Shown here one piece after another: positions 1 to 20,364 of a stretch of 20,890 nt of DNA. Position numbers and translations under genes: made by a program. The stretch is from the IMG/VR virus record IMGVR_UViG_3300024346_000632, positions 1 to 20,890 of that record; one strand, written 5' to 3'. The notes below the pieces were generated by a model. It searched no databases. It was not told the origin of the DNA and was given only the letters and a program-made list of their open reading frames with translations. Position 1 is the first letter of the stretch. The number at the start of each line of letters is the position of its first letter. The stretch is from a virus.

Positions 1-733
1 AGTTACTGTTAATACTTAAATGTATATCTGGATTAGGGTTTTCAATAACGTAGTCAAGAACTTTAAATGTGTCTTTACACAGTAAAGGCTCGCCGCCTGT
101 TACTCTAAAATGCTGTAGCTCTCTATAAACTGTGGGCCACCATTTCCAAAATGCTTCCACATAAGGATTATATTGATTATGCGGAATAGGCATTTGGTCA
201 ATTTGTTTAAGTCCTGCAATGTCATTAAATTTACCGTGAGTAGGATACGGGCCGTGTTGCTTGACTTCTTCCATCCATAAACTACTAACCTGCGGACTGC
301 AATAGCTACATTTAAAATTACAAACATTACTAAAACTAACTTCTAAATAGCTAGGAGCAACATCCTGATCCCACGGCATATCTTTAATTTCATCTAAGTG
401 CGGCTTTGCCCATACATCATAACTTTTGTAAATTCTATCACTAAGTGCATCGGGTGCGCTGTCTTCTACTTTCCAGCAATAATCACATTCTTTTGGTCGT
501 ACGCCTTCTAACATTAATTTACGTTGTTCTTTTTTGAACTTTGTATTATGCAATGCGCTGGGATTAACAGCCAGTTCGTCTAAGGGAATTTTGTGCGTAG
601 TGGGATGGTGACAACTGTGGTTGTGGCCTGTTTGTAAATGCAGAGTTACTTGCTTCCACTTGGCAATACAAAAACTAGGACTAACATCGTTAATCTTTTG
701 TTGAAATGCAATGATATCTTTATTGTGTTCCAT
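1..733 (-). CDS. Radical SAM protein (twitch/SPASM-like), partial at left edge
   Basis: I translated this frame by hand from the ATG at 733-731. It runs 244 codons without a stop and leaves the window, so the C-terminus is missing. Residues 138-145 carry the radical SAM signature CxxxCxxC (Cys138, Cys142, Cys145), which binds the 4Fe-4S cluster that cleaves S-adenosylmethionine. Residues 213-217 read GGEPL, the usual GGE motif contacting the methionine part of SAM. Ahead of the core are Cys22, a Cys-His-His-Pro at 41-44 and a CxxCW at 83-87. Similar upstream cysteines occur in phage and bacterial 'twitch domain' radical SAM proteins, where they may hold extra metal or structure. The start lies one base after the TAA of the 735-1706 gene, so it is the last visible gene of the glycosyltransferase cassette and probably translationally coupled. 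The substrate is unknown. The superfamily call is secure; the subfamily is less so. Confidence 0.9.
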   Translation of the reverse strand, partial: MEHNKDIIAFQQKINDVSPSFCIAKWKQVTLHLQTGHNHSCHHPTTHKIPLDELAVNPSALHNTKFKKEQRKLMLEGVRPKECDYCWKVEDSAPDALSDRIYKSYDVWAKPHLDEIKDMPWDQDVAPSYLEVSFSNVCNFKCSYCSPQVSSLWMEEVKQHGPYPTHGKFNDIAGLKQIDQMPIPHNQYNPYVEAFWKWWPTVYRELQHFRVTGGEPLLCKDTFKVLDYVIENPNPDIHLSINSN

Positions 734-734
734 A

Positions 735-1706
735 TTAATTTATTGAGTTATCTACTTGATTTTCTTTAACCTGAGCACCAAGTCTCGGTGGGTTAATCCA
801 ACTTTCCTTAAACATTTTACTGCCGTTGTAGTCTAATTCTGCTACTTCTAATCCTAGATTAGTGCGTAGAGATTCACCTAATTTAAAAATTTCATCTTGT
901 AATTTTTTCTTATCATATGTCCAACCTGTGGTCATGCATTTTTCATTGCCGCCTTCAAATTGTGGCTGTACACTTTCTTTCCAAAATGCATCATGCCATT
1001 CGAAGTCTCGGACTAATGTAAAATCAAAGTCTTGTCTAGCTAAATTGGACATGTAACATCCTAGTCTAGTGCCGTACATTGCCCATAATCCGTTGTCAAT
1101 ATCTGAACCTACGCTGGCCCATACCAATAATCGTTTATAATTTCTGTCATGTACACGTTCTTTAAGTCTACGTGGATCAACAGTAACTCCGCCTTCTAGG
1201 GCCAGCTTAACACCTTCACGGAAGCCTGCTCTGTATGCTTGATACGCACTGGCGTTATTATGAACATCGCTGTAGATGTTGTTCATTTGATGATAATAAA
1301 TGTCCCAACAAAAGTCTACCTGCGCCTTAGGATCTTCTGCGGCTTCGTGTGTACGCATTTGTTCTACAACATGCTTTGGCCACAATTTTAAACCACCATT
1401 GCCATAGACTAATCCATTAACAGCGTTCTTTCCTGCCCATGATATAACATCATGCCTATTAATCTTTGTCATGTCCAATTCAATGGTTAGAAAGTCATCG
1501 CGAACTATGTTGTCAGCGTCAACTGTAATAAATCTATCTGTTTCAGCGGCGGCGGCGGCGGCTTTGTGTGCCGCGTCAAAGCCTTTAACTCCGTGTACAC
1601 GTTTGGCCCATGGTGCTTTATTGCATAAATCTGCAAAATTTTTATCTGCGTTTGGTTCATCGTAGCTTAAAAATATAATGTCAAAACTAGTAATAGGTGC
1701 AAGCAT
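735..1706 (-). CDS. Glycosyltransferase-like protein with DxD motif
   Basis: This protein of 323 residues begins with a Rossmann-like strand and the phrase FLSYDEPNADKN. It then has VKGFDAAHKA and the motif VDADN at residues 62-66. A hydrophobic strand ending in DxD is the hallmark of GT-A-fold glycosyltransferases, where it binds the metal and nucleotide sugar. I recall similar proteins from marine myoviruses and some bacteria annotated as glycosyltransferase-like, but the sugar and acceptor cannot be read from the sequence. Residues 49-54 are six consecutive alanines, encoded by a GC-rich triplet run at about 1546-1562 that stands out in this AT-rich DNA. The C-terminal half is rich in Trp, Tyr and His. 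The start ATG lies inside the end of the upstream gene (20-base overlap), and the stop is one base before the radical SAM start. No signal peptide or membrane segment is visible, so it is probably cytoplasmic. Confidence 0.72.
   Translation of the reverse strand: MLAPITSFDIIFLSYDEPNADKNFADLCNKAPWAKRVHGVKGFDAAHKAAAAAAETDRFITVDADNIVRDDFLTIELDMTKINRHDVISWAGKNAVNGLVYGNGGLKLWPKHVVEQMRTHEAAEDPKAQVDFCWDIYYHQMNNIYSDVHNNASAYQAYRAGFREGVKLALEGGVTVDPRRLKERVHDRNYKRLLVWASVGSDIDNGLWAMYGTRLGCYMSNLARQDFDFTLVRDFEWHDAFWKESVQPQFEGGNEKCMTTGWTYDKKKLQDEIFKLGESLRTNLGLEVAELDYNGSKMFKESWINPPRLGAQVKENQVDNSIN
1546..1562. repeat. GGC triplet microsatellite encoding polyalanine
   Basis: Five perfect GGC triplets plus a partial unit lie inside the 735-1706 gene. 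On the coding strand they read as GCC alanine codons, giving six alanines just before the DxD strand. Uniform GC-rich codons are unusual in this AT-rich window. The length is a multiple of three, so slippage would change protein length without breaking the frame. Confidence 0.7.
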
Positions 1707-2667
1707 TTTCTTCCTCGGTATGTAAGTGAAGATAGTTACAAAGTAATCTAACTTCTTTATCTGAACTTAATTCTATTTCAAATTGATTATAATTATTAAG
1801 TTGTTCGCTGTTTAATTTAATTGAGCCTAGCATCTTTGCCGGATCATATTTCTGATAAAAATATAAAATAAGATCATCGCTTAATCTAAACGAATGTATA
1901 TCATTTATTGTGCTTTGTAATTTTAACACATTTCCATGTTGTTTGTAAAGCAAATTAGGCTTGTATTCAAAATTATTTGTCATTGGTTGTTCAAAAGACT
2001 CGACGCCCACGGATATAATTTGGTTGTCGTTGTAATATAAAAACCCAATCTTTTTCAGTTGTTCAGCATCATCGGGCAACCATGGGCATTTATAAGTTAT
2101 TTCGTGTTCTTCAAATAATTGTTTCGTAGAGACAGTAAATTTACCCAGTAACCTTGATGGTTCATTTTTTTCAGTGCAATATATTTCTATGTATGCTGGT
2201 AGTTCTTCTAAATCTTTTTCCGTGAGTTTTTCTATTGAGAAATTAAACTTAAAAACATCGTCGTCAAAACGTATATGTACATTTTTAGACACAACATCAC
2301 ATACTAAATGAATATAAGAATGTTCAGTGGTAGTAGCAAAAATAAAATCAAATTCAGTTTTAAGACGCTGTTTATGTTGTGCTAGTTCTAATAGACCTGT
2401 ATCATGATTTTTTTTAATTTGTAATTTGGATAGTGATAATTTATTATTGAATATTTTTGTTGTTAGCTTAGATGGATTTACTTTAATAATGATATTTCGA
2501 CGAGAAGATGCTGATATTTCTGTGGGAGAAATCCCAGCAATATTATATGTTAGACGATCATATTCTACATAAACTTGTTGTTCGTTGTTTAAATTTCTTT
2601 TTTTAAGAACACTAAGCTGTATATCAAATTCATCATCCTCGACGATATCTTCTAAAAAATCGCTCAT
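1687..2667 (-). CDS. Unrecognised protein with duplicated beta-rich unit
   Basis: I do not recognise a family for this 326-residue protein. It begins with an acidic stretch (residues 1-16, many Asp and Glu). The remainder alternates short hydrophobic and polar stretches in the way of beta-sandwich proteins. Two segments look like copies of each other: around 155-210 with EPSRLLGKFTVSTKQL, and around 260-310 with DPAKMLGSIKLNSEQL. Each is preceded by a hydrophobic strand and followed by an Ile/Phe-Glu-rich strand. This suggests an internal duplication of a beta domain, perhaps a binding or structural module. It sits between two glycosyltransferase-like genes: its ATG abuts the stop of the 2668-3483 gene with no gap, and its end overlaps the next gene by 20 bases. 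It is therefore part of the same coupled cassette. A C2-like or carbohydrate-binding fold is possible but unproven. Confidence 0.7.
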   Translation of the reverse strand: MSDFLEDIVEDDEFDIQLSVLKKRNLNNEQQVYVEYDRLTYNIAGISPTEISASSRRNIIIKVNPSKLTTKIFNNKLSLSKLQIKKNHDTGLLELAQHKQRLKTEFDFIFATTTEHSYIHLVCDVVSKNVHIRFDDDVFKFNFSIEKLTEKDLEELPAYIEIYCTEKNEPSRLLGKFTVSTKQLFEEHEITYKCPWLPDDAEQLKKIGFLYYNDNQIISVGVESFEQPMTNNFEYKPNLLYKQHGNVLKLQSTINDIHSFRLSDDLILYFYQKYDPAKMLGSIKLNSEQLNNYNQFEIELSSDKEVRLLCNYLHLHTEEENACTYY

Positions 2668-3483
2668 TTATTTTTTTAAATTCGAAATTGCTTCTTCGGT
2701 TAACCAACCACACGATTCATATTTAACTAGTCCTGATTGTACAAAATTTTCAATTTTAAGAACTCCGTCGTCATTGACCCAATAGGTTAAAAATTCGCTC
2801 CAACGCCTAGTCCAATTATTGTTAACATAATTATTTTCTTGCTTTGATAAATCTATACAATGCATAAAGTCAAATGTAGAAATTTTGCCACTGGTTATTA
2901 TTTGCAACAGCGACATTACCCAACTATTCCATATAAATTTAGGAAATGAAGGCATCTCATGTTCTTTATCTACGAAAAAATTAATGTAGTCATCTTGATC
3001 ATAATTGGCACATAGTATGGCGGCTAGACCAAAGATGTTATCACAGCCTTTATCTTTATTAAAAAATATAGCATTAGGAATACTAGAAAGCCCAAAACTT
3101 TTTAATTCTGTGCTTGCAGTATTGTATAATGTGGGATTTATAATTTGTCCGTTAAACAAATAACGATTCTCGGGTAATACAATGGAATCTAAGCCTCTAA
3201 GATTTTCCCATACTATAGTGTCAAATGCTGTTAATAGTTGATCCGGCAATAATGCAATAGTCTTGTCATATGGACTGGCTAATAGAGCTTTAAAATAACC
3301 CAAGGTAGGATTTTCTTCGTTTGAGTAGATAACATCATCTGCTTCTATAAATTTAATATCATTGTCGTTGACAATTACACTTACTGGACGATATGGGTCT
3401 ATTTTTCCAATACTGCGAATTAATAGTTCCACTTCAACTTGATTGTCCATATTAGCATTTACTATTAAATAACCTTCACTCAT
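2668..3483 (-). CDS. Degenerate glycosyltransferase-like protein lacking DxD
   Basis: This 271-residue protein appears to be a diverged paralogue of the 3476-4372 product. Both share an N-terminal strand, a helix, and the sequence Ser-Pro-Tyr-x-x-Thr leading into a hydrophobic strand. In the neighbour that strand ends in MIDVDYIV with a DVD metal site. Here the equivalent place (residues 70-82) reads SPYDKTIALLPDQ, so the first Asp of the DxD is missing. Later segments with paired aromatic residues and a Trp-rich C-terminus also recall GT proteins. It may be inactive, may use another mechanism, or may serve as a regulatory or binding partner of the active enzyme. The start ATG overlaps the end of the upstream gene by 8 bases and the stop abuts the next ATG. 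Gene reality is firm; the glycosyltransferase relationship rests on my eye alignment. Confidence 0.68.
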   Translation of the reverse strand: MSEGYLIVNANMDNQVEVELLIRSIGKIDPYRPVSVIVNDNDIKFIEADDVIYSNEENPTLGYFKALLASPYDKTIALLPDQLLTAFDTIVWENLRGLDSIVLPENRYLFNGQIINPTLYNTASTELKSFGLSSIPNAIFFNKDKGCDNIFGLAAILCANYDQDDYINFFVDKEHEMPSFPKFIWNSWVMSLLQIITSGKISTFDFMHCIDLSKQENNYVNNNWTRRWSEFLTYWVNDDGVLKIENFVQSGLVKYESCGWLTEEAISNLKK

Positions 3484-4372
3484 AGATTAACTCCTTGAGT
3501 TTAGGATAGTGTCTTAGAATTGCCATTTTATTCATCAAGTGTATATTTTCATTTGACACTCTACTACAGATATTTTTCCATAGTTCTTTAGGATCAGGAC
3601 ATAATAAAACATAGTCACTAAGTGATTTAAATTCTACAATGTCATCAATTTGTTCACTGAATCTCATTGCTTTTCCTGGTAGCTGTGATACAATATTTCC
3701 AGTGTCATGCCCGTTTAATATATGTACAGCGATACTGGCTGCATAGTCGGTTCTAAACAATACCCCCGGAAACTTATACAGCCATTTATAATATTGATAA
3801 TTCTCTTTGACATGTTGCCATATACCAAAGAATAATTTGGCTACTTCACTGTCGTTTCGCCAATATACAACTGTGCTCCACCACATGTCTATACCGTCTG
3901 GATGTAATTTTTGTTCCCAGATACGAGGTTTATAATTTCTAACACTAACAGCATCTTTATACATTGCTAATTCATAGTCTGTGTCAAATATAACATCTAA
4001 ACTATCATTGCCTACAATGTAGTCAACGTCTATCATCAAAGTTTGTTCGTATGGACTTTTTTGAAAGATACTGTGTTTATTTTTATTATTAAATTGCGTA
4101 CTAAATTCAGTCCAAGGACTGTCCCTGTGCATCCTAGTATTGCGTTCATGTTCTATATCTTCGACAATGATATGATCAAACGTATCAGCAAGTTGATCCA
4201 TGGACAATTCTATTTGCAATGCATTATATGTATTCAAATCTGTGAGTAACGTCACATGATTGTTTTTCATGTGACGTTTTACATTTGATGCAGCCACAAT
4301 GGCTAATTTTTCGTAGTCAATCTTGCCGTTGTTATAAGCAATCAACAAAACCCCTTTATTGAATTTAGGCAT
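3476..4372 (-). CDS. Putative GT-A glycosyltransferase (DVD motif)
   Basis: This protein of 298 residues resembles GT8-like or other nucleotide-diphospho-sugar transferases. The N-terminus has a beta strand (residues 7-12, VLLIAY) and a helix with AIVAASNVKRH. Residues 106-120 read SPYEQTLMIDVDYIV, where the DVD at 115-117 is the expected metal and nucleotide-sugar binding motif after a hydrophobic strand. Downstream are a Trp-Trp-Ser at about 164-166, aromatic-rich segments and Asn-Gly-His-Asp near residue 219, compatible with acceptor and second metal contacts. No signal peptide or membrane helix is seen. The gene overlaps its upstream neighbour by 8 bases and its downstream neighbour by 8 bases. 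It would transfer a sugar to an unknown acceptor, such as a virion protein, a host surface glycan or DNA. Confidence 0.75.
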   Translation of the reverse strand: MPKFNKGVLLIAYNNGKIDYEKLAIVAASNVKRHMKNNHVTLLTDLNTYNALQIELSMDQLADTFDHIIVEDIEHERNTRMHRDSPWTEFSTQFNNKNKHSIFQKSPYEQTLMIDVDYIVGNDSLDVIFDTDYELAMYKDAVSVRNYKPRIWEQKLHPDGIDMWWSTVVYWRNDSEVAKLFFGIWQHVKENYQYYKWLYKFPGVLFRTDYAASIAVHILNGHDTGNIVSQLPGKAMRFSEQIDDIVEFKSLSDYVLLCPDPKELWKNICSRVSNENIHLMNKMAILRHYPKLKELIYE

Positions 4373-4718
4373 TTAATCCAACCAGTCCTTTAGTGTCTCG
4401 CTGTTTTCTTATTTTTTCATAGCTATTGTAATATTCATTGAGTGCTTCGGTGTATGCACTAAACAACTTGATATGAAAATCTTCTAAGGCTGTTATTAAA
4501 ATCGGATTCTCGTTATCATCAATAAACACAAATTGTTCAACATTTTTATCTAATAAGTGTTGAACAAAATTAATTAGTTCAAGGGTCGCCGTAAACATTG
4601 AATTTGAATATCCAATGGTTAACATGGTATTCATCCGTTGTTTTAGATTTAGTTTTTGATTGTTTAAAGTTAAGCGGTAGTTGGAGAACTCCAATGCCTC
4701 TTTTAGTTTGTCATCCAT
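4365..4718 (-). CDS. Small helical protein, first gene of the cassette
   Basis: I do not recognise a family for this 117-residue protein. Most of it looks alpha-helical, with two charged amphipathic regions at residues 1-35 and about 85-112 around a short hydrophobic core (FVFIDDNENPILI). This suggests a small assembly or adaptor protein. It is the first gene behind a late-type promoter (TATAAATA at 4754-4747). It has a good ribosome site, GGAG, five bases before the ATG. Its end overlaps the glycosyltransferase start by 8 bases, so the two are coupled. A role as a tail chaperone, a minor virion part or a partner of the transferases is equally possible. Confidence 0.65.
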   Translation of the reverse strand: MDDKLKEALEFSNYRLTLNNQKLNLKQRMNTMLTIGYSNSMFTATLELINFVQHLLDKNVEQFVFIDDNENPILITALEDFHIKLFSAYTEALNEYYNSYEKIRKQRDTKGLVGLNA

Positions 4719-4731
4719 TTTGACTCCATTA

Positions 4732-4743
4732 TATACTAGTATA
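4732..4743. repeat. Perfect 12-bp palindrome TATACTAGTATA
   Basis: A perfect palindrome lies between the late-type promoter at 4747-4754 and the GGAG ribosome site of the 4365-4718 gene. It covers the expected transcription start. It could be an operator or a weak hairpin at the 5' end of the mRNA; an AT-rich palindrome of this size could also be chance. Confidence 0.45.
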
Positions 4744-4746
4744 ATG

Positions 4747-4754
4747 TATTTATA
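4747..4754 (-). promoter_or_regulatory. T4-type late promoter TATAAATA
   Basis: On the minus strand this is an exact TATAAATA, followed by CATTA. It matches the core of the T4 late promoter read by polymerase carrying the phage late sigma factor gp55. It lies 28 bases upstream of the ATG at 4718, which puts the expected start site in the untranslated leader. It would drive the cassette of glycosyltransferase-like and radical SAM genes separately from the fibre genes upstream. Confidence 0.7.
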
Positions 4755-4772
4755 TTAGCAAAATGAAATATC

Positions 4773-5792
4773 TTACGGAGTTGTTGCTGTTCCAGAGTAG
4801 GTTGGTTGTGTAATAGAAAATGTTGCACTTCCGCTGGTTTTTGTTGTTGCTTTATTGCTTTCGATGTGTAAAGTATGATTGCCATTTACTGCTGATGTGT
4901 CAGCACTATTCAATACTACACGAAGGACTAATCTAACTGGTCCCGTGATATAATTACCATTTGTTGCAACAATAGATCCATATACTTTTATATTTTTAGT
5001 TGAGCCTCCATAGCCGTATCCATAGCCATATCCATAACCGTTGCCATATCCATAACCGTTTCCGTTTCCATACCCGTATCCATACCCGTATCCATACCCG
5101 TATCCACCACCGCCACTTCCGTTGCAAATTAGTAATAACTGCTCTGAAGAGTTCAAGTCTCTAAAGCCTTTGTTTTCACTGATTAAGTTAACCGTTGTGG
5201 AAATTGTATTTGTTAATTTTAAACTTACAACACCAAACCTAGCATACAATGATTGCCAAAGTGCAGATACTCCAGAACCTGTGCCTGCCAAGGTCAAATT
5301 AATACTTCCATCGCTGTTAAAGAAATAACGGGCTTTATCGTAGGTATCAAACTGTAGTGTTACGGTATAAGTTAGACAACTATCCCAAGCAGTGCTTCTA
5401 ACTATAGAACCTAATGTAGATAATGCACGTTGTCCTATTGCCGAAGTATTATGTCTATCATCAATATCAGTTGCAACAGTTTCTATATCATTCCAAATAC
5501 TTGCTGTGACTTTTTGGCCTATAATAACTCTATCCAGTTCATATAGGCTTCCTGTGTGTTCGGCGCCTAAATTAATTCGGTCAATCATTTCATTGACCAG
5601 GGCCGCTGTGATTCTAGTACCGGTATTAGCAAGGTTAGCAGATGTATTTCCCCAGCCGTAGCCCTGTCTTATTTTGTCACTTAATACTGTTCTGGGGATA
5701 CTACTAGGATAAATGTCGGCGAATACTTTGTTGGTATTATTAACCAACACATTATAGTCACTAGCTGTGATTAGTTGACCTTTTGCTGCCAA
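4773..5792 (-). CDS. Tail fibre or adhesin-like protein with Gly-Tyr tract
   Basis: This protein of 339 residues starts at TTG (5792-5790), one base after the TAA of the upstream gene, with GGAG nine bases ahead. No ATG gives a better fit. The N-terminal 130 residues are polar and helical, with paired phrases such as LITASDYNVLVNNTN and KVTASIWNDIETVATDI that look like repeats of one small domain. The middle is beta-rich. A run of 16 Gly-X dipeptides (13 Tyr, 3 Asn) follows, preceded by Gly-Gly-Gly-Gly and followed by Gly-Gly-Ser. After it comes another beta segment ending in Thr/Pro-rich residues. Glycine-rich runs are known at the receptor-binding tips of T4-like fibres and in gp38-type adhesins, so a host-contact role is likely. 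It follows two other structural genes and precedes the glycosyltransferase cassette. Confidence 0.72.
   Translation of the reverse strand: MAAKGQLITASDYNVLVNNTNKVFADIYPSSIPRTVLSDKIRQGYGWGNTSANLANTGTRITAALVNEMIDRINLGAEHTGSLYELDRVIIGQKVTASIWNDIETVATDIDDRHNTSAIGQRALSTLGSIVRSTAWDSCLTYTVTLQFDTYDKARYFFNSDGSINLTLAGTGSGVSALWQSLYARFGVVSLKLTNTISTTVNLISENKGFRDLNSSEQLLLICNGSGGGGYGYGYGYGYGYGNGNGYGYGNGYGYGYGYGYGGSTKNIKVYGSIVATNGNYITGPVRLVLRVVLNSADTSAVNGNHTLHIESNKATTKTSGSATFSITQPTYSGTATTP
5010..5105 (-). repeat. 16-unit Gly-Tyr/Gly-Asn coding tandem repeat
   Basis: Ninety-six bases encode sixteen Gly-X pairs in the order six Tyr, two Asn, two Tyr, one Asn, five Tyr. The first part is three exact copies of a 12-base unit, GGATACGGGTAT on the coding strand. 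The rest is the same 6-base theme with changed third bases (GGT, GGC, TAT, AAC). The unit length is a multiple of three, so gain or loss keeps the frame and would only alter the length of the adhesive tract. Confidence 0.9.
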
Positions 5793-5793
5793 T

Positions 5794-6735
5794 TTATCTT
5801 ACTCCGACCGCAACTTCTACCGTACTAATACCATCGCTAATTTTATCATCTAATGCTCTGCCAATAATGTTTATTGGATTATATTCATTTGTTGCCATGC
5901 CAACACCTTCAACTTCACTAGAAACAATGCGTTGACCTTTACGTACTGTGCCTTTTACTAAACAAGGTACACGACCTTTAAGTGCCACAGGGTAAGCGTT
6001 TTCTTGCATTTTCATTTTGCTGTTTAATAAGAAACCCGGAGCTGTTGATATAATACCAAATACTTCTTCGTCGTAGGCTTTAATTGTTTTTGTAATTTCC
6101 ATTTCGCCGCCAAGGCGCACAATGTTACCGGGAACAAGTTCTACGTCACTTCTATATATCTCGGCCATGTCGGCAAACTCTGCTTCCATAGCACGGCCAC
6201 GAATTTTAAAGTTACCGTAATTAGAGGCTCCAGATGGATCACCATCGTTCATATTAATACCACAGCCAATAACTGGAAATGTTCCGGCCAATCCAGTATC
6301 TGCGTGTGGAATATATGTGCCAGCATCACTACTGATAATAGCAACGATTGTGCCTGTTGTTGCAGTTAAAGATGAACCTACATGTATTTTCATAGCACGG
6401 TGAAATATTCCCGAAGTATCTTTAATCAATGCTGTACTAAATCCTTCAACTGGGCCACCAATCAAATCAGTGCCGCCAATTGGGTTCCACTTAACACCAT
6501 CGAATACGTAGATGACTCGTGAGTTACTGTTCCACCAAAATTGTCCGGTAATAGGATTTGAAGGTTCAACGGGGTTGCTGAAGTTTTCCAGCATTTGAAC
6601 TAGATTTTCTGCCATTATTTCGCCGTATGCGGGATAATTTTTACCCAACAATTTAATAGGAGTAGTAATATCTACTTGTCTATCCGAAACGATTGTTAGT
6701 CGTGTGCCGTCTGTTTTTGTAACATCATATGCCAT
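5794..6735 (-). CDS. Tail fibre/structural protein with Peptidase_G2-like part
   Basis: This protein of 313 residues has an N-terminal phrase with NYPAYGEIMAENLVQMLENF and then NPITGQFWWNS, typical of phage tail-fibre attachment regions in marine T4-like phages. Residues 60-80 include a Trp-rich beta region (FWWNS, VFDGVKWNP) common in tail proteins. The C-terminal half has EAEFADMAEIYRSD, then VELVPGNIVRLGG, and EEVFGIISTAPGFLLNS. This order resembles the C-terminal Peptidase_G2/autoprocessing domain of phage tail spikes, though the catalytic residues cannot be confirmed by eye. It has a ribosome site (AAGGAA) ten to eleven bases before the ATG and a late-type TAAATATA further upstream. It probably forms a fibre or a fibre connector on the baseplate. 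Confidence 0.75.
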   Translation of the reverse strand: MAYDVTKTDGTRLTIVSDRQVDITTPIKLLGKNYPAYGEIMAENLVQMLENFSNPVEPSNPITGQFWWNSNSRVIYVFDGVKWNPIGGTDLIGGPVEGFSTALIKDTSGIFHRAMKIHVGSSLTATTGTIVAIISSDAGTYIPHADTGLAGTFPVIGCGINMNDGDPSGASNYGNFKIRGRAMEAEFADMAEIYRSDVELVPGNIVRLGGEMEITKTIKAYDEEVFGIISTAPGFLLNSKMKMQENAYPVALKGRVPCLVKGTVRKGQRIVSSEVEGVGMATNEYNPINIIGRALDDKISDGISTVEVAVGVR

Positions 6736-13400: not shown

Positions 13401-15801
13401 GTGGATTGGTTGTTAAACTAAGAGGTGCAGTTTTGCTAGTCGGTGCTGTGAGTATAGTGTCAATACAAATTTTATCACCATACTGAGATTTTGAATCTAA
13501 AATAGATGTTGATATTATTTGCTGATTAAAACTTAAAGATCCATCTGCCAATGTAATGTCATTTAATGTATAATCATAGCTTTCGTAAATAGGATTTGTT
13601 TTATCTCTGAGAAAAGCAAATTGTAAAAATCTCCATTTATATAAAGGACGAATAATAGCTGACTTGGTTACATTATTAGCAATCCACGATAAACGTGTAG
13701 TATCTACGTTTAGTATATTATCAATATATCCTGTGCCCAGGTCAATACTAGATGAAAGATTTAATTCAATTACTCCGTTACTTACTCCGTTATTTGTACA
13801 GTAAGGGTCTTCGAGTAATACTGTAGTAGAAATATTATTAATTATTTCGTTGCGATAAAATGTTATGCTGTATGGCAAGTCGTGACAGACTATTTTAAAC
13901 GTGCCACCTGATATTAATGGTAATACTTGCTCTAATGTATGGAAACCTCGCTTACTAGAAAATCTAACTAGCCCGTGACCTTCTACATTATAATAGAATT
14001 TTAATTTTTCTTTATCATCATAGAATATATGTATGGTATCAAATCCAGAAGCAGTTGGAATTATTTCACCGCTCCATTGACTTTCAGTGTCATTATCAAA
14101 GAACAAATCCTGTGTTTGTCTTGTTATATCTACACCTCGGCGTGGTTGATAGAACGATATAGGAGTTGCTGACAAAAACTTATAACCAAAAGGTCCTATA
14201 ATACCAATCTCTTCTCCAGAAGTAATATTGTTATAATAAAAAGTTTTATCTACATCTGTTGTAAATTTTAATTGGTTAGGGCTAATATTAATAGGATTGT
14301 TTTCATTAATTATATCAAAGTCAATACTACTAATCGAAACTAATCTGTTTAATTCATAATCCAATACCGAGCCTGCGGCAAAATCTAAAATAGTACCACC
14401 TTTAAAGTCAGTTTCGTTAAATGTTTCTAAGTTAATTCCTGTGCTGGTATAGAATTCAAACTTAGGGCATTGATTTTTTGTTGTTTTATTTTGTGCAAAC
14501 TGCCATCTAGAATTTTTATAAAGTAACCTGTAATATCTTATATCAGAATCGACAACTACTAATGCGCCGTCACCTGATACTACACTATTTGTCAGCGTAA
14601 AGCTGGCGTTAGTAACGGGATTGGCCACGGTGTATATACCAGGACTGTTTTCAAATACCAAGCGATCACCACTAACTAATGTGTAACCATACAAATCTTT
14701 GATTTTGGATTTGCCTACGTAATCAGATATTGATCCTGTCAGCATTGTCGCAACGGTATTTTTAATATTATTTGGCCAGTTATATAATCTTGTATATCTA
14801 TTAAACGTAATAATAGGACGTTTTGCTTTATTTGCCGCAGTTACAATGTTACTAACTGACGTGTCTAAAAAATCTGCAACGGTTTTGATTAAAGTTATAT
14901 TATACCAATGATCAATGACACCCCAATGATTTTCATTGGCAATATATTTGTCCATGGTAATATATTCTGGCTCGGACGTAACAATCTGACTGCCGTCCCA
15001 TACTTCGCTGTCCCATTTAATTGATGGGGCATCTACAAACGGATCAGTTTTATCCCATGGACGTTTTTTAAGATAACTATTTGGAATTCTTTTATCAATG
15101 TTAGTAGTTCTTAATAATCCTATGCTTTCTCCTACACCACTGACAAAATAAGTTTTAGGTAAATCGACATCAGCTGTAACATATTCAGAATCAATAAAGC
15201 CAGTAAAATAAATATTCATACCAGTTTGCAATGTCAATGATTTACCAGTTATATCATCTACAATAGTAACGGTGGGTTTGCCTAGTATATCGTCAACTAC
15301 AGAAAATTTATTTCCGCCACCAGGTGCTTGATTTAAATGAATTCTCATCGCCGGTAAATCATTGGCTACCCAATAATACAAATAATAATCTGTTAAGCGA
15401 GCAGGAATAATGGGCAAGTCTAAAATGTTAATATCTTTATCAAGTTGAATACCATCATTTAGTTCCAACCCTTTTACTCTAAAATAATTTTCAATGTCCA
15501 AGTAACTAGTCTTACCTAAATAAGCATCTGTAGAGTCTCTCATAACTAACATGTTGTTAGCTTGACTTTCACGGCGAACTTCATCTTCTTCTACTTTAAA
15601 GAAATCCGTGACTTTATTTGTTGCACTTCTTAAGCCAATAGTTTCTTTGAAATTTGATAACTGACCTTTACTGGTCATTAAATCCAAACTAGAATCTAAC
15701 ATCTTTTTGTTAGGTTCCGTGACAAATACCTGCGGTAAAAGATTTACATTTTTAACCTTTTTTGCAGTTATTTCTGCTGGCTTTTTAGTTTGCTTGCTCA
15801 T
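7423..15801 (-). CDS. Giant baseplate/tail structural protein (gp7 position)
   Basis: This 2792-residue protein occupies the place that gp7 and gp8 fill in T4, directly after gp6. T4 gp7 is about 1030 residues, so this is far longer. The N-terminal 130 residues are polar and helical; a conserved-looking core follows with PARLTDYYLYYWVANDLPA and a beta region. Later parts are beta-rich and highly modular. Two segments look like small CBM5/12-type aromatic modules: about residues 1883-1927 (Y..TTSYKKDALVRYNGYLYYA..., then W) and about 2420-2467 (Y..ATAYHPRDMVLHHTTFYVC..., then W). Between them, about 1980-2048, is a beta barrel-like unit with VGDYVLIVNAGS. The last residues are Asp/Gly-rich. 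The start ATG overlaps the gp6 stop as ATGA, so translation is coupled. A baseplate wedge protein fused to host-binding modules is my reading; homology to T4 gp7 is not shown. Confidence 0.75.
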   Translation of the reverse strand: MSKQTKKPAEITAKKVKNVNLLPQVFVTEPNKKMLDSSLDLMTSKGQLSNFKETIGLRSATNKVTDFFKVEEDEVRRESQANNMLVMRDSTDAYLGKTSYLDIENYFRVKGLELNDGIQLDKDINILDLPIIPARLTDYYLYYWVANDLPAMRIHLNQAPGGGNKFSVVDDILGKPTVTIVDDITGKSLTLQTGMNIYFTGFIDSEYVTADVDLPKTYFVSGVGESIGLLRTTNIDKRIPNSYLKKRPWDKTDPFVDAPSIKWDSEVWDGSQIVTSEPEYITMDKYIANENHWGVIDHWYNITLIKTVADFLDTSVSNIVTAANKAKRPIITFNRYTRLYNWPNNIKNTVATMLTGSISDYVGKSKIKDLYGYTLVSGDRLVFENSPGIYTVANPVTNASFTLTNSVVSGDGALVVVDSDIRYYRLLYKNSRWQFAQNKTTKNQCPKFEFYTSTGINLETFNETDFKGGTILDFAAGSVLDYELNRLVSISSIDFDIINENNPINISPNQLKFTTDVDKTFYYNNITSGEEIGIIGPFGYKFLSATPISFYQPRRGVDITRQTQDLFFDNDTESQWSGEIIPTASGFDTIHIFYDDKEKLKFYYNVEGHGLVRFSSKRGFHTLEQVLPLISGGTFKIVCHDLPYSITFYRNEIINNISTTVLLEDPYCTNNGVSNGVIELNLSSSIDLGTGYIDNILNVDTTRLSWIANNVTKSAIIRPLYKWRFLQFAFLRDKTNPIYESYDYTLNDITLADGSLSFNQQIISTSILDSKSQYGDKICIDTILTAPTSKTAPLSLTTNPLNEKLSTINYYSLYQHAINLKSNTSNSKEVLQTDASLISSSMGGGTLLKHNNPLAKAAIVATNLPYDFSEILIKQGKHYDMFLNKLKYELEQVINKNDISTISSLDVLNLAVKQIFLNQTDNENFWYHSNMLGWGQSINYTETTLTATPTVSIPNAISHRAGKETILHIVSNKKILLRGIDYTLTSADSHYTNIEFSSDIQGDTVTIRQWTDEFNSKIPASLAKIGLSPVYQPEIYADSSYADTKYFLCRHDGTRLYLEDGVDGSGYPNNTIDQLLFEYEKAVWSSISYDVENNSNANLLEDQPGYFRSGRYPWSITRSVVNAEALTWMAENNIFIMSNTAHDDTDPFTLIYQLGSGDGADTITGSWRAIYKYLYDTDRPHTHPWEMLGYTLKPTWWDTHYSWTNSAKRIALEKALRTGNTSTPNTPNINPFFARVSNVNDAEDFPVDINGNLIAPLDLAWLSAYGMDSSRDWVIGEQGPYENVFLNTHRGVASEAKLKFLASPARYVNANWVPGQTITNQWGIKLDRTTTNWLQGDINHYYHRQVVDGAINYTAGIESLYSEFCALNNKDFKSSVIDKFNNIVVNKEFLLNGFSNKNNIRIESTSIASQRKTLFVPEENYAVRLVKHYSSNEIFYSAMRVIWNGTAYSLHGFTNEQGFFNYYAPLLTSSTTAKTIGNVVVKEKNVYSTLVSTIAYGQEFTSRQEIYDVIVGYGKYLEAQGFKFDDVESYDLRNWQLSATQFIFWSNDSIAPGNYIDLNPAASGIVLSIANGQLENLEGTNDNVGQCVDRKNKPLFSKDLLVDRSDVITIKTKDTTNPISGIKLTFAVYESVVHLDPTSVFDDIYFLPDQCTTKQSFVIGGKKSQAWNGSYFVPGYVVSGNSIIPNYDTLSEVGRNLLDIENVVENNTILEASRSQFGLNRNPELRQLFLQEEIETLFKNAITYTKGTKQVFTGLEPLTHPDGTSTTPLEEYMVRVGEFGNTKNIEFYEFELSSDDVSRNPQVISFVTKNADKTDPYIHYINHTSQKWVYKPYGKDLSFSTLNRTYTDLKTSGPIIAGDANYSVATLEDLPELYKNFAELYNISAYSATTSYKKDALVRYNGYLYYALTTVSPNTWINNSDKFTAIDEPHLPNIFINNYSKPNPNITSSGNSMFTPATWQVLQTIDRNISVNEVCTGLTDTSQARISCNVAHRAQVGDYVLIVNAGSVNANANGIWKIESVEDTFKFYINTRITETITTGKVFVFKPIRFKNITELNAVTGANADTNGYAWKKKYNPFGITNSLPLTPSGYDASYPIAIIDDGLGNSTGDTSFDFGNYKVYKITQTDTITKTLVKEDSLPLDHSDIEYLAIYDYEANKVLAKLELFDPRKLYLPKAFKDDIDVISRVDPAKYTRTTDEYKSAYASLGWYEEYIGRRWWDTSTTQFSDYESGSATARARYWGTTVNGANPDIYEWTKSPVHPTQWNKLVESNSTAFGQRATGQAYIDKTSGKDNYHWVEEQDYVNGKTYNVYYFWVKNKETISQESKAIRVYSTGQLSKVLLNPSAAGLPWYAPINNNSIMLKGVDHLLNNSSTVVQIKKKLKGEEKHQQWLFVSEANNTETIPQWIHVRFRDSIAGGIHYQPTAPYVNYNTATAYHPRDMVLHHTTFYVCHTHTTGTFDSSKWQIIYGAEYVSANKFKFDITKNVPDMIKLHRYSQLGNDIRPYPQGWFKDIIEARRTFVKKVNQLLLNVDISSLSQWGNILNQTSYTIFDTTIDLTQYWTYTNYQSADYDATKAISLTVNTLAELYSSYVTASSYIKVLEDNSIYEKDSLGGFKVVYRTADADAGRGAIKLSDELFSTKGTWDGSKWDQINVPWDFDLNSVFYALMEAFRNDIFINEYNTSYSKMTCAMFRYVLSEQVNVDWLQKSSTIEPINISGSNLIRTNTLHRDDVVVISDFYSSVKSYRDKIRSSSITKQLIEINGISFDELLSVDDTEIAIGIGGDEAGDTIVFN

Positions 15802-18800
15802 CTACTGATCCTAATGTTACTGTCTGTAATTTCGTTGATAACAATAATATCGCTTACTCCCGCAACACTGGTCACAACTTCGTTTCTATCTGGTTGTATT
15901 TGGAATAAAGTTCCAAATCTACCTTCTGCACTTAATGGAACTATGACAACGCTGTTTAACTCTGATTTTAGTGCTGTGTGTATGTACGCTGCCAATTCTG
16001 TAAAATAAAATATTTCACCAAAGCCAAAGTTACCTGGCGTAAAGAATGTATCTATGGCCGCAGTAACTTTACTTTTAATTTCACTGTCAGTAATTTTAGT
16101 TTTTAAACTCTTAACAACTTTAAATTGTGCTTGGAATTCAGGATCTGCTAATGTTCCAAACAGAGGTTTAAACTTAACAGGATGAAAGATAACTTCGTCG
16201 GTCATCATTTTATATTCCGATAAGTTACTAAAGTTTTCACGTAGTTCTTCACTAGTAGGCGGCAATGGTGCAACTACGTTGACATTATTTTTCTTTTTCC
16301 AAGCAACGTATTCATCATTATATGTTTTAGTTAATACATATGCGTCTATGATGTTAGTTAAACTTGGATTCAATGTTTGGTCAATACTGGTATTGTGTTC
16401 CCATTTAAATGCCAAGTTCATTTTGCCACTGACAGTATCTACTATTGTTTCACTGGTGGTAAGTGGGGCAGGAATGTCATATGAGAAATCACCTTCTTCA
16501 TAGTTTATCAATGCTATTTGACTTGTGCCAACAATGTTTAAGAAATGTTCTGGATCATCTGGCAAGAAGTCGTTGTTTAAATCTAATGGAGTAATCTTTA
16601 CTTTACTGTTATCAGTATAGCCGTCATCATAGACATAATATCCGCTGATACGATATTTTTTAAGTACTGCTAGTTTACCTGCATTGTCTAATGTAACTAA
16701 ACTAATATAGTCATCGCTGACTGCTTTAAAATTAGGATTAAATGAAGCGGCAAAATTAATATTGTAAAAACGTATTAGTTCTTCACTGCCAAACATATAA
16801 TCTAATTGTCGAGTAGTAATAGTCCATCCGTCGCCAGTTCTACTAAGATTAATTAGCCAGCCGGTTGTGTTACTTGCAGAATCATAGTCTGAGATTTTAT
16901 CTGCATTTGTTGTAATGATTGTCCACTTGGGCGTGATGTTATCAAACTTAAGAGCAAAATTTTCTTTGGCGTTTAATTTTTCTATAATCAATTCACGTGT
17001 CATTGTATCAAATACTCTAGAAAACGGTGGAAGTATTTCCACCACTCTATTGGTAGTAGTCAATGAAGCATTAATTTCAACAGGGCCGTGTCCGCTAGGC
17101 AACAATCCGGTATATACATAATTTATATTTTCAATACCAAGGCCGTCACCTCGAATGTCTGTTATAGTAACCCATTTAGTTGAACCTGTGCTACTTTCAA
17201 ATTTAACCAATGCTCCGGGGCGCATTGCTCTTAGCTCGCCACCTGTTGTAAACCCTAATTTCATAGGAACGGTGGCTGCCAATGACTCAGAAATAAAACC
17301 ATTGCTTGATGTTAAGTCATTATAGGCATATCTCCAACGATAGTCACGAACCTTATATGCTCTGGATCCTGTTGCATGAGCGACCGGCTTTCTTGCTATA
17401 TTTGCCGGATCAGTTAAATTGTTTGGATCATATTGTTGCGCTCTTAACACTCCAGTAAATGTGTTACCAGTAATTCCACGGTATGTAAACAATTCATCAT
17501 CAATTTGTAACATGCCGCCATCTATATCAAAATTGTCGTAGGCATTGAGAGTGTTAAGGCTTGCAACTGGAATAGTTATAATAGTAGATGTTGCATCAAT
17601 ATCAATAGTAGTAGTTGCGTAATAAATTGTTTTTTCTAATTTAACACTGGGGAAATATTTTGTACTTGCAGTTCCAGTTATACCTTCTAGGTTTAATTTA
17701 CCATAATAAAAGTTTAAAAGTCCAACATCTGTTAATTGTTTTTCTATGTACTCGTCTAACAAATCAACACTGCGTCTAGAAGCATCATCTGCAATGTAGG
17801 TATTTTTAATAGAGTCGCTTTTATACATATAACCATCATCACCAAATTCAATTAGTGGACGACTCTTGCCAGTGGGATCGCTTAAATCCACGTAACGACT
17901 GTGTCCACTGAATGTACGGTTTTCGGTTTTCATAATCAACACGTCGTTGTTTAATGTGGGCAAAAAGCCGTTATAGTCATCACCGGTGACCATTCTATTT
18001 TTACTATAGAATGCTTCGGGTGCATTACGTTTAATTTCATCAACTGTTTCACTGGGCAATCCAGTGATCATGTTATCTTGTAATTCTAATGTCAGTGTCA
18101 ACGTTTGACTTTGATTATTTGCATTTGTGTAACCAATGTTAAATGTAATATTAGTAATTTCTCCTGCTTTAATTCTAACAAAATCATTTTCTGCAATACG
18201 ATACCAAACTTTTATTTGTCCTGTTGGCACATTTGTAAATGAGCCATCACCAAACTTAATACTTGTAATGTCAGCATCGCTGTAGATAACTTCATACAAA
18301 TTGTTTTCGCTGCCGCTGTATTCATTTAATACAATATTAGAAAAGTTCAAGTCACTGACTTTCTTCCAAGATTTTAATATTGCTCCAGTGTCATCTATTG
18401 ACTGAACATAAAAATCTTCTTCGCTGATGTTTCCTGTGTTAGGAATGTCTATAGTTAAATTAGCTGTGGGACTGAAAATCTGCTGTATAGTACTAACCAA
18501 TGATCCCTGCTTGGCTAAAAAGAAAAATCCTGTTTTAGTGCTGCCAACGCCCTTGCCATCATTTCTATACATAATACTAAATGCACTATCTAAGTTAGGC
18601 TCGGATTGTGTTAGCGTACCATCTGTGCTGATATCAATAGGTAGTATATCAAAATTTAAATTTAACCCGTCAACGTTACTACTGATAGCATAATTTGTTA
18701 GCAATTCTGTGCCAAGGTTATTAAAATTATATATTTCAAATAAGTTACCAGTGTCTGTGTTTGTGCTACGCTTTACAGGAGTGCCAAATTGATTGTTGGA

Positions 18801-19295
18801 ATTAAATGAAGCATTCATTACTTTTGTAAAACGCTCGTATTCTAATTCGCTGGGATCGGCGCCCCACATAATTGTCTTATTGGATAAATTTACACCACTG
18901 CTGTCCAAAATTTGTTCAGAAGTATTAACTGCTACAACCTTCATAAAACCCTGTGCAGGACGAACACGTTTTGGCTTGTAACTAAGCATACGTGCAATAC
19001 GTAATACACTTTCACGCTTTTCTGCTGTGTCTAAAATGTTTTCTCTGGCATTCAAGTCCATACGGAATGCTAGGTTCTGACCTACATACGCTACTAAGTC
19101 AACTAAGGCGATAAACTCGCTGTTCTGTGTATAGTCGTTGAACTCTTCAGGATAATTAAATTGAACATAATCAATCATTGACTGACGCAACGTGTCGAAG
19201 TCATAACTACGGAACTCTGCGTTTTTAAAACTAGAATATACTACTGTCCAGTCTTCTGCTCCGTATAAGTTTTCTTGTCTAATTGCCTTTGGCAT
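15798..19295 (-). CDS. 6: Baseplate wedge protein gp6, long form
   Basis: This protein of 1165 residues begins with a region very typical of gp6 in T4-like marine phages: SSFKNAEFRSYDFDTLRQSM, then YPEEFNDYTQNSEFIALVDLVAYVGQNLAFRMDLNARE, all within residues 20-85. Near residues 428-441 is NRMVTGDDYNGFLP, the 'vTg.DY' motif shared by gp6 and the wider baseplate J family. The C-terminus (about 1080-1150) has a helix-strand domain ending in a likely wedge contact. T4 gp6 has about 660 residues, so there are large insertions. One at about 560-720 has beta strands and a YRWRYAYND segment. gp6 dimerises and joins wedges into the ring around the baseplate hub together with gp25. The ATG follows the gp25 stop by 11 bases with AAGGA as ribosome site, and the stop overlaps the giant gene start by four bases. 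Confidence 0.93.
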   Translation of the reverse strand: MPKAIRQENLYGAEDWTVVYSSFKNAEFRSYDFDTLRQSMIDYVQFNYPEEFNDYTQNSEFIALVDLVAYVGQNLAFRMDLNARENILDTAEKRESVLRIARMLSYKPKRVRPAQGFMKVVAVNTSEQILDSSGVNLSNKTIMWGADPSELEYERFTKVMNASFNSNNQFGTPVKRSTNTDTGNLFEIYNFNNLGTELLTNYAISSNVDGLNLNFDILPIDISTDGTLTQSEPNLDSAFSIMYRNDGKGVGSTKTGFFFLAKQGSLVSTIQQIFSPTANLTIDIPNTGNISEEDFYVQSIDDTGAILKSWKKVSDLNFSNIVLNEYSGSENNLYEVIYSDADITSIKFGDGSFTNVPTGQIKVWYRIAENDFVRIKAGEITNITFNIGYTNANNQSQTLTLTLELQDNMITGLPSETVDEIKRNAPEAFYSKNRMVTGDDYNGFLPTLNNDVLIMKTENRTFSGHSRYVDLSDPTGKSRPLIEFGDDGYMYKSDSIKNTYIADDASRRSVDLLDEYIEKQLTDVGLLNFYYGKLNLEGITGTASTKYFPSVKLEKTIYYATTTIDIDATSTIITIPVASLNTLNAYDNFDIDGGMLQIDDELFTYRGITGNTFTGVLRAQQYDPNNLTDPANIARKPVAHATGSRAYKVRDYRWRYAYNDLTSSNGFISESLAATVPMKLGFTTGGELRAMRPGALVKFESSTGSTKWVTITDIRGDGLGIENINYVYTGLLPSGHGPVEINASLTTTNRVVEILPPFSRVFDTMTRELIIEKLNAKENFALKFDNITPKWTIITTNADKISDYDSASNTTGWLINLSRTGDGWTITTRQLDYMFGSEELIRFYNINFAASFNPNFKAVSDDYISLVTLDNAGKLAVLKKYRISGYYVYDDGYTDNSKVKITPLDLNNDFLPDDPEHFLNIVGTSQIALINYEEGDFSYDIPAPLTTSETIVDTVSGKMNLAFKWEHNTSIDQTLNPSLTNIIDAYVLTKTYNDEYVAWKKKNNVNVVAPLPPTSEELRENFSNLSEYKMMTDEVIFHPVKFKPLFGTLADPEFQAQFKVVKSLKTKITDSEIKSKVTAAIDTFFTPGNFGFGEIFYFTELAAYIHTALKSELNSVVIVPLSAEGRFGTLFQIQPDRNEVVTSVAGVSDIIVINEITDSNIRISR

Positions 19296-19306: not shown

Positions 19307-19687
19307 TTATCCAATTTCTCGTTCTGCGGTCAAGTTTCTGTTAAACACCGCTACTAATTCTGTTTCTGTGGCTGTTGGAACATATCTCAATATAATTGAC
19401 ACTATAATAGTATGCTCATTGTCTACTACATCTAAATTTAATAAATCTAATCTAGGATCTTTAGTTACAATACGTAGACAATCTGCTCTGATAGCATCTA
19501 TGATTTCGTCTGTCAAAGGATCAAACAGTAAATCCCATACTATGCTGCCAAACTGCGGACTCATCAAACGCTCGCCTTTGCGAGTATACAACTCGTTGAG
19601 CAGATCACGCTTTGCGAGGTCTATATCATAGAGTTTGAAGTTTCCCCATGTTTTATCAACAGTACTATAACCTTTGAATTTTCTCAT
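19307..19687 (-). CDS. 25: Baseplate wedge protein gp25 (GPW/gp25 family)
   Basis: This protein of 126 residues is close in length to T4 gp25 (132). It starts FKGYSTVDKTWGNFKLYDIDLAKRDLL, then ERLMSPQFGSIVWDLLFDPL, then helix and strand segments ending VFNRNL. This is the characteristic gp25 order: a small alpha/beta domain that, with gp6 and gp53, forms the wedge core and starts sheath polymerisation. The usual 'FEP' of the conserved EPR region is FDP here, a conservative change. No clear Shine-Dalgarno site precedes the ATG, and the late-type motif AATAAATA lies only five bases before it. The alternative of a later start is unlikely because the N-terminus matches the family. It is followed by gp6 after 11 bases and preceded by the HNH gene's terminator. 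Confidence 0.93.
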   Translation of the reverse strand: MRKFKGYSTVDKTWGNFKLYDIDLAKRDLLNELYTRKGERLMSPQFGSIVWDLLFDPLTDEIIDAIRADCLRIVTKDPRLDLLNLDVVDNEHTIIVSIILRYVPTATETELVAVFNRNLTAEREIG

Positions 19688-19755: not shown

Positions 19756-20295
19756 TTATCCTGTTGCCGTTAGCTTACTATCGTAGCCCAAGTATTCTGC
19801 CCATGCCGGATCACGCATTTGATAGGGATTATGTTGTTTAACAACTTTAACCATTTGCCAATAGCTGGGTTCTTTGGGTTTAATCATGGGCTCAATTACT
19901 TTGGCACCTTTGAGCCAATTACAAGTACCACAGCAAGTAACTAGATTGCTCCATGAACTGTTGCCGCCCTTACTTTTAGGCGTGACATGATCTAGCGTCA
20001 AGTCTTTGGCTTGAAACTGGTCTCCGCAGTACTGACAAGTATAGTTGTCGCGTAGATAAACCATTTTACGGTTAAACAATACTTTGTGTTTTGGTCGTAC
20101 ATAACGTTTAGTCATTATGATACTAGGCACGGGTATTGCTAGTTTTTGACTGTGGACTACCCAGTCATCGTGCTCTTTGATCACAGATACTTTGTTTAAA
20201 AAAACAAGTTTAATGGCCATGGTCCAATCAACGACACTGGGCGGCAGCATGGATAATGGACTACCATCGCTGTTCAAAATTAATGTATCGCTCAT
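19756..20295 (-). CDS. HNH endonuclease, bacterial-type
   Basis: Taken from the ATG at 20295, this encodes 179 residues. A GTG further up (20346) lies close to the promoter -10 hexamer, upstream of the expected transcript, so it was not chosen. The N-terminus (LILNSDGSPLSMLPPSVVDW) and the middle (IPVPSIIMTKRYVRP) match a widespread bacterial HNH family with an 'LVLNAD..PLS' start. The nuclease core at about residues 87-126 has CxxC (Cys87, Cys90), the catalytic Asp-His (102-103), Asn117, and a second CxxC (Cys122, Cys125) for zinc. It probably cleaves DNA. It has its own consensus promoter and terminator, and no split gene is visible next to it, so I do not call it an intron-encoded homing enzyme. 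A packaging, recombination or free-standing homing role is possible. Confidence 0.88.
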   Translation of the reverse strand: MSDTLILNSDGSPLSMLPPSVVDWTMAIKLVFLNKVSVIKEHDDWVVHSQKLAIPVPSIIMTKRYVRPKHKVLFNRKMVYLRDNYTCQYCGDQFQAKDLTLDHVTPKSKGGNSSWSNLVTCCGTCNWLKGAKVIEPMIKPKEPSYWQMVKVVKQHNPYQMRDPAWAEYLGYDSKLTATG

Positions 20296-20335
20296 ATTTT
20301 TATTTAATCTTATCGGCCAAATAGGCGTAAAAACT

Positions 20336-20364
20336 ATTATACACACTTAAATATATATTGTCAA
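20336..20364 (-). promoter_or_regulatory. Consensus sigma70-type promoter of the HNH gene
   Basis: On the minus strand TTGACA (20364-20359) is followed by a 17-base spacer and TATAAT (20341-20336). Both hexamers are perfect consensus and the spacing is optimal. The start site should be near 20329, giving a leader of about 34 bases before the ATG at 20295. This supports early expression by host polymerase. Confidence 0.88.

Follow-up and report, generated by a model that had tools for sequence, protein, structure and literature searches.

The 20,890 nucleotides of the window analysed here (20.9 kb) are a genome fragment of an uncultivated T4-like phage. The cassette is encoded entirely on the minus strand, neighbouring genes being separated or overlapping by 0–54 bases, in the order gp25, gp6-like, a 2792-residue protein, F9, F5, F4, F6, F1a, F1b, X, F2 and a radical SAM gene (Table 1). 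The tight, one-strand arrangement of a fibre-like protein followed by glycosyltransferase-like and radical SAM genes, as given in a preliminary description of this DNA, is thus confirmed. Upstream of gp25 we find an HNH endonuclease-like gene (positions 19756–20346) with weak similarity to the HNH region of IscB. Among the virion genes, F9 was detected in 9 of 11 cultured phages tested, and F5 contains a Peptidase_G2-like stretch (weak, below cut-off).

Table 1. Position of the virion genes, the fibre tract and the genes behind the fibre in the window.
Feature	Position	Strand	Remark
Baseplate wedge gp25	19307..19687	-	PF04965, 2.5e-8
Baseplate wedge gp6-like protein	15798..19295	-	
2792-aa virion structural protein, jumbo-phage type	7423..15801	-	relatives in cultured jumbo phages
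F9 virion protein, common to wider jumbo-phage group	6770..7381	-	phrog_11259, 8e-56
F5 virion protein, upstream of fibre	5794..6735	-	PA5oct counterparts gp358/gp359
F4 fibre-like virion protein, 339 aa	4773..5792	-	TTG start immediately after upstream stop
Gly-Tyr/Asn tract, F4 residues 230-261	5010..5105	-	apparently expanded loop at conserved Tyr
F6 conserved small protein, 117 aa, behind fibre	4365..4718	-	58/59 F2-anchored loci
F1a GT8 (glycogenin-like) glycosyltransferase with DxD 'LMIDVDYIV'	3476..4372	-	profile vs PDB
F1b GT8-like paralogue, 271 aa, DxD lost in window lineage	2668..3483	-	profile vs PDB
X, 326-aa beta-rich protein with partial duplication, flanked by F1b and F2	1687..2667	-	132 X genes in position, sizes vary
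F2 divergent, predicted GT-A glycosyltransferase with DxD 'ITVDADNIV'	735..1706	-	AlphaFold2 pLDDT 90
N_Twi_rSAM, twitch-domain radical SAM protein	2..733	-	truncated at contig start; opens the variable payload

The fibre protein F4 comprises a helical N terminus and a β-sandwich, which bears a Tyr/Gly loop. Its AlphaFold2 model has a pLDDT of 85 overall and of <50 in the tract, which is predicted to be disordered between two strands, and a fold search against the PDB returned no confident match among solved structures. The F4 homologue of phage PA5oct, gp360 (HMM 1.2e-54), is annotated ESI-MS/MS. The tract consists of 16 Gly-X pairs (13 Tyr and 3 Asn) and contains Tyr-Gly-Asn twice, a recount that agrees exactly with the earlier figures. 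Its DNA is a degenerate 12-bp tandem repeat of 8.3 copies, and its length varies among close relatives. Across the family the fibre loop is hypervariable: in the majority of homologues it is short and 'SGxYxxN'-like, retaining one near-invariant Tyr, and the remaining ones carry (GY)n, (GGY)n, (SGY)n or GEY repeats. Tyr-Gly-Asn is absent from the fibres of most relatives. Tyr makes up 15–24% of loop residues versus 4% elsewhere, with no enrichment of Phe, Trp or His. Judged by this comparison of homologues, the Gly-X tract arose by expansion, within one lineage, of a Tyr-holding fibre loop.

The two DxD-containing glycosyltransferase-like proteins and the paralogue lacking the motif, reported before, correspond to F1a and F2 and to F1b, respectively. 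Glycogenin is the sole family matched among solved structures by the F1a and F1b profiles, DxD region included: it accounts for 19 of 19 PDB matches of F1a (best E=0.005; E=0.014 with a 66-sequence profile) and for all those of F1b (glycogenin-1, E=2.7e-7). Both proteins hence resemble the GT8 nucleotide-binding domain, F1a more weakly than F1b. As the similarity is confined to this N-terminal part (∼100 residues), it does not reveal the acceptor; in contrast to glycogenin, F1a and F1b are two separate proteins, and their acceptor would be another protein. Asp-115 and Asp-117 of F1a are invariant in 66 sequences. The DxD position of F1b reads 'ALLPDQLL' in the window, a loss that appears lineage-specific because 'LDAD' is retained in most orthologues from other phages. 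An F2 profile search against the PDB gave nothing meaningful, and the predicted fold was therefore needed for its assignment. Foldseek paired this model almost exclusively with GT-A enzymes or nucleotidyltransferases, every match being weak (best E=4e-3), and F2 is thus predicted to adopt a GT-A-like fold with weak individual structure matches. A profile built from single-unit relatives of X hits the window protein two times (7e-12 and 3e-5), which fits the duplicated β unit noted previously, or else an extended one.

The radical SAM protein N_Twi_rSAM is cut off at 244 residues in the window, compared with 466 residues in L003. It scores above the curated cut-off of family NF033640 (220.9 bits, cut-off 170, E=2.8e-65), and its CX3CX2C motif and N-terminal twitch Cys are invariant in 34 sequences. 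Matches to named maturase families are weak and all below cut-off. To our knowledge, no function has been described for NF033640.

Locus scans were run from three anchors, radical SAM, F2 and F9, the latter being used because the fibre alignment is too variable for a scan. All three return one core, F4-F6-F1a-F1b-X-F2. Where F2-anchored loci extend far enough upstream, F4 and F1 are found in 59/59 and F6 in 58/59 cases; a radical SAM gene lies ≤5 genes downstream of F2 in 33 of 63 F2-anchored loci. Scanning from F9 yielded 40 loci with both fibre and GT8 and 5 with neither. In five further loci with a fibre only, the sequence ends ≤429 bases from the fibre, and the single locus with GT8 only has an unrecognised 690-residue protein in the fibre position. 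Glycosyltransferase genes are thus linked to a virion protein gene. The earlier proposal of a cassette that modifies the fibre or other virion proteins is supported in its sugar part, as the glycosyltransferase core follows the fibre essentially always and ties these genes to it, and is not supported in its radical-made bond (see below). No cultured phage bearing the cassette was found, and tblastn searches of cultured phages with the radical SAM protein, a glycosyltransferase and the window fibre did not find close relatives. Phages lacking an adjacent radical SAM gene (L101:8883–9425 and relatives, F182) have extra F2 paralogues behind F2, together with a protein with weak, below-cut-off similarity to Asp/Asn β-hydroxylases.

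We find the loop Tyr in 146/146 non-redundant fibres linked to glycosyltransferases (200/200 in a separate HMM alignment, redundancy included). L013 and L014 lack the GT8 core, and their loop is reduced to 'SGA', with no loop Tyr. Neither of the two records (46 and 139 kb) contains GT8, though G018 still has F2 paralogues elsewhere. PA5oct and MIJ3 share the gene order of the baseplate-fibre module up to gp360, but F6, GT8 and F2 were not found there in searches that detected positive controls, and the Tyr loop of gp360 is deleted. Seven further cultured jumbo phages with F9 gave no F4, GT8 or F2 (three controls detected). In a fibre tree built without loop columns, L013/L014 are nested inside the clade of the window, and two separate changes are needed, both forced by well-supported branches (∼6 fibres without downstream sequence were scored as GT8-linked). 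By these alignments and searches, GT8 and the loop Tyr are absent together in two independent lineages, L013/L014 and PA5oct/MIJ3. Both go in the predicted direction and no contrary case was found, the events being few (n=2).

Since the fibre keeps its loop Tyr with GT8 and loses it without GT8, the virus probably decorates this fibre protein with sugar. We give an even chance to the reading that the core F4-F6-F1a-F1b-X-F2 is dedicated to glycosylating the tail fibre, with the loop Tyr as the predicted acceptor. Animal glycogenin, a GT8 enzyme, glucosylates its own tyrosine (tyrosine O-glucosylation). By analogy, a GT8 enzyme of the core would start the glycan by linking a sugar to the loop Tyr, F1b and F2 would extend it, and F6 and X may assist. 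Gly-Tyr, Gly-Gly-Tyr or Ser-Gly-Tyr expansions would then multiply acceptor sites, so that the flexible loop would bear a brush of glycans, and the radical SAM gene would be part of an exchangeable sugar island downstream of the core. GT8 acting on the loop Tyr would be the simplest single account, for which we infer chemistry, sugar and order of steps. As a counterpoint, the loop Tyr may be structural or receptor-binding and may have been lost along with the loop.

Phage enzymes glycosylate capsid proteins in the mycobacteriophages Che8 and Rita (Freeman et al. 2023, as cited in PMC11256854). As described there, phage-encoded glycosyltransferases likewise act on their own virion, a modification demonstrated in mycobacteriophages and read from genes here; capsid proteins are modified in that system, whereas ours would involve Tyr of a tail-fibre loop and GT8 enzymes. 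We found no report of tyrosine-linked fibre glycosylation in phages in the openly licensed literature. The cassette can now be stated as one testable claim, namely that a named Tyr loop of a named virion protein is the acceptor for named enzymes. If true, tyrosine-linked glycosylation would occur on phage tail fibres and be common in uncultivated giant phages, and glycosyltransferase genes beside fibres, usually taken as host-surface modification, would have to be read differently.

Host-surface modification is the main rival to fibre glycosylation, and we regard it as a tentative possibility. The glycosyltransferases and the island would remodel a host surface polysaccharide and block competing phages, and adjacency to the fibre would reflect a shared late operon or a host-recognition cluster. 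GT8 enzymes are also common in LPS synthesis. A host-surface role is the published view for the host-recognition clusters of pelagimyophages, which resemble our locus in placing tail fibres, GT8 genes and radical SAM cassettes behind a T4-like baseplate and have been interpreted as modifying the host O-chain (PMC7029224). Jumbo-phage surveys likewise interpret similar clusters, including the polysaccharide clusters of jumbo cyanophages, as polysaccharide modification (PMC7824862). The fibre-GT8 core was not found in searches of HTVC008M and P-SSM2, and no paper joining radical SAM, jumbo phages and glycosyltransferases was found.

The region downstream of the core, which resembles surface-polysaccharide synthesis, also speaks for a host-surface role. 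In the nearest long relative (235 kb), the radical SAM gene opens an island behind F2 that holds a glycosyltransferase, a shikimate-dehydrogenase-like gene, a set of sugar-metabolism-like genes (carbamoyltransferase, NTP-transferase/APH, cupin, GatZ-like and GDSL-like), along with another block of radical SAM genes. The 235-kb record G013 has ∼15 N_Twi matches (9 above cut-off) and 17 Radical_SAM matches, most radical SAM matches lying in one block at ∼143–166 kb (L332/L333, L004 contig); the 90-kb record of L003 has 14 radical SAM matches. A host-surface role leaves unexplained, however, why an invariable GT8 core stands behind one fibre family while the downstream content varies, and why the loop Tyr and GT8 were jointly lost twice.

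The island gene content favours sugar or glycan chemistry for the radical SAM protein, and this abundant N_Twi family thereby gains a genomic context. Most likely the protein is an exchangeable island part whose substrate is a sugar or glycan and not the tract, which is the weakest step of fibre glycosylation as proposed here. An extended version of that proposal, which we consider rather unlikely, is that in a large, uncultivated jumbo-phage group a glycogenin-like pair builds a Tyr-linked brush that is lengthened by tandem-repeat slippage of Tyr codons and diversified by the island (at most ∼15 radical SAM genes, glycosyltransferases, GDSL-like), creating a variable viral glycome.

Alternatively, the Tyr/Gly loop could bind the receptor like the glycine-rich distal adhesins of T-even-like phages, with Tyr contacting host sugars and the enzymes acting elsewhere. 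Aromatic residues often bind sugars, and a hypervariable, Gly/Tyr-rich loop of predicted flexibility would fit such a role, which we nevertheless judge improbable: the enrichment concerns Tyr and none of Trp, Phe or His, short loops keep their near-invariant single Tyr, and its joint absence with GT8 is left unexplained.

The radical-made bond in the Gly-Tyr tract that had been suggested for this locus is unsupported. Among non-redundant F2-anchored loci, a radical SAM gene is near 13/18 long-loop and 15/29 short-loop fibres (Fisher p=0.23, in a test that treats related sequences as separate, so that significance is inflated, if anything), and the co-occurrence check proposed with that idea thus reveals no significant association between Gly-Tyr fibre and adjacent radical SAM gene. 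N_Twi is found downstream of many fibres with short, tract-free loops (25 rSAM-anchored and 15 F2-anchored, non-redundant), records G015 (385 kb) and G016 (363 kb) combine a short loop with radical SAM, and five fibres with (GGY)n-type loops have no radical SAM gene nearby. G001, a tract phage without an adjacent radical SAM gene, has six N_Twi matches elsewhere; because some tract phages carry N_Twi elsewhere in this way, independence at whole-genome scale is shown in one direction, radical SAM without tract. The enzyme hence shows no consistent co-occurrence with a Gly-rich repeat as in RiPP-like systems, and we rejected the pairing as unsupported, with radical SAM genes behind tract-free fibres and Tyr-rich loops without an adjacent one. 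That the enzyme crosslinks or epimerises the tract is accordingly very improbable, despite its auxiliary-cluster type domain, as in peptide maturases, and its presence near most long-loop loci, given also that L013/L014 keep radical SAM after losing the loop and that Tyr-Gly-Asn is missing in most relatives.

Close relatives of N_Twi_rSAM are concentrated in Bdellovibrionota genomes (L172–L246), with tandem arrays in L200, L202 and L206; several other matches in this set resemble phage contigs binned into MAGs. The Bdellovibrionota neighbourhoods are mixed, with few glycan genes, and proved too weak to assign a radical SAM substrate. The G013 phage encodes MetK, a methionine adenosyltransferase (L334:7065–8165, TIGR01034 469 bits), which is located outside the island in the 235-kb genome and could be a source of S-adenosylmethionine. 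In other N_Twi_rSAM contexts (L055:7525–8982, F12), the gene next to it encodes a GT7-type galactosyltransferase fused to a LamG-like lectin domain.
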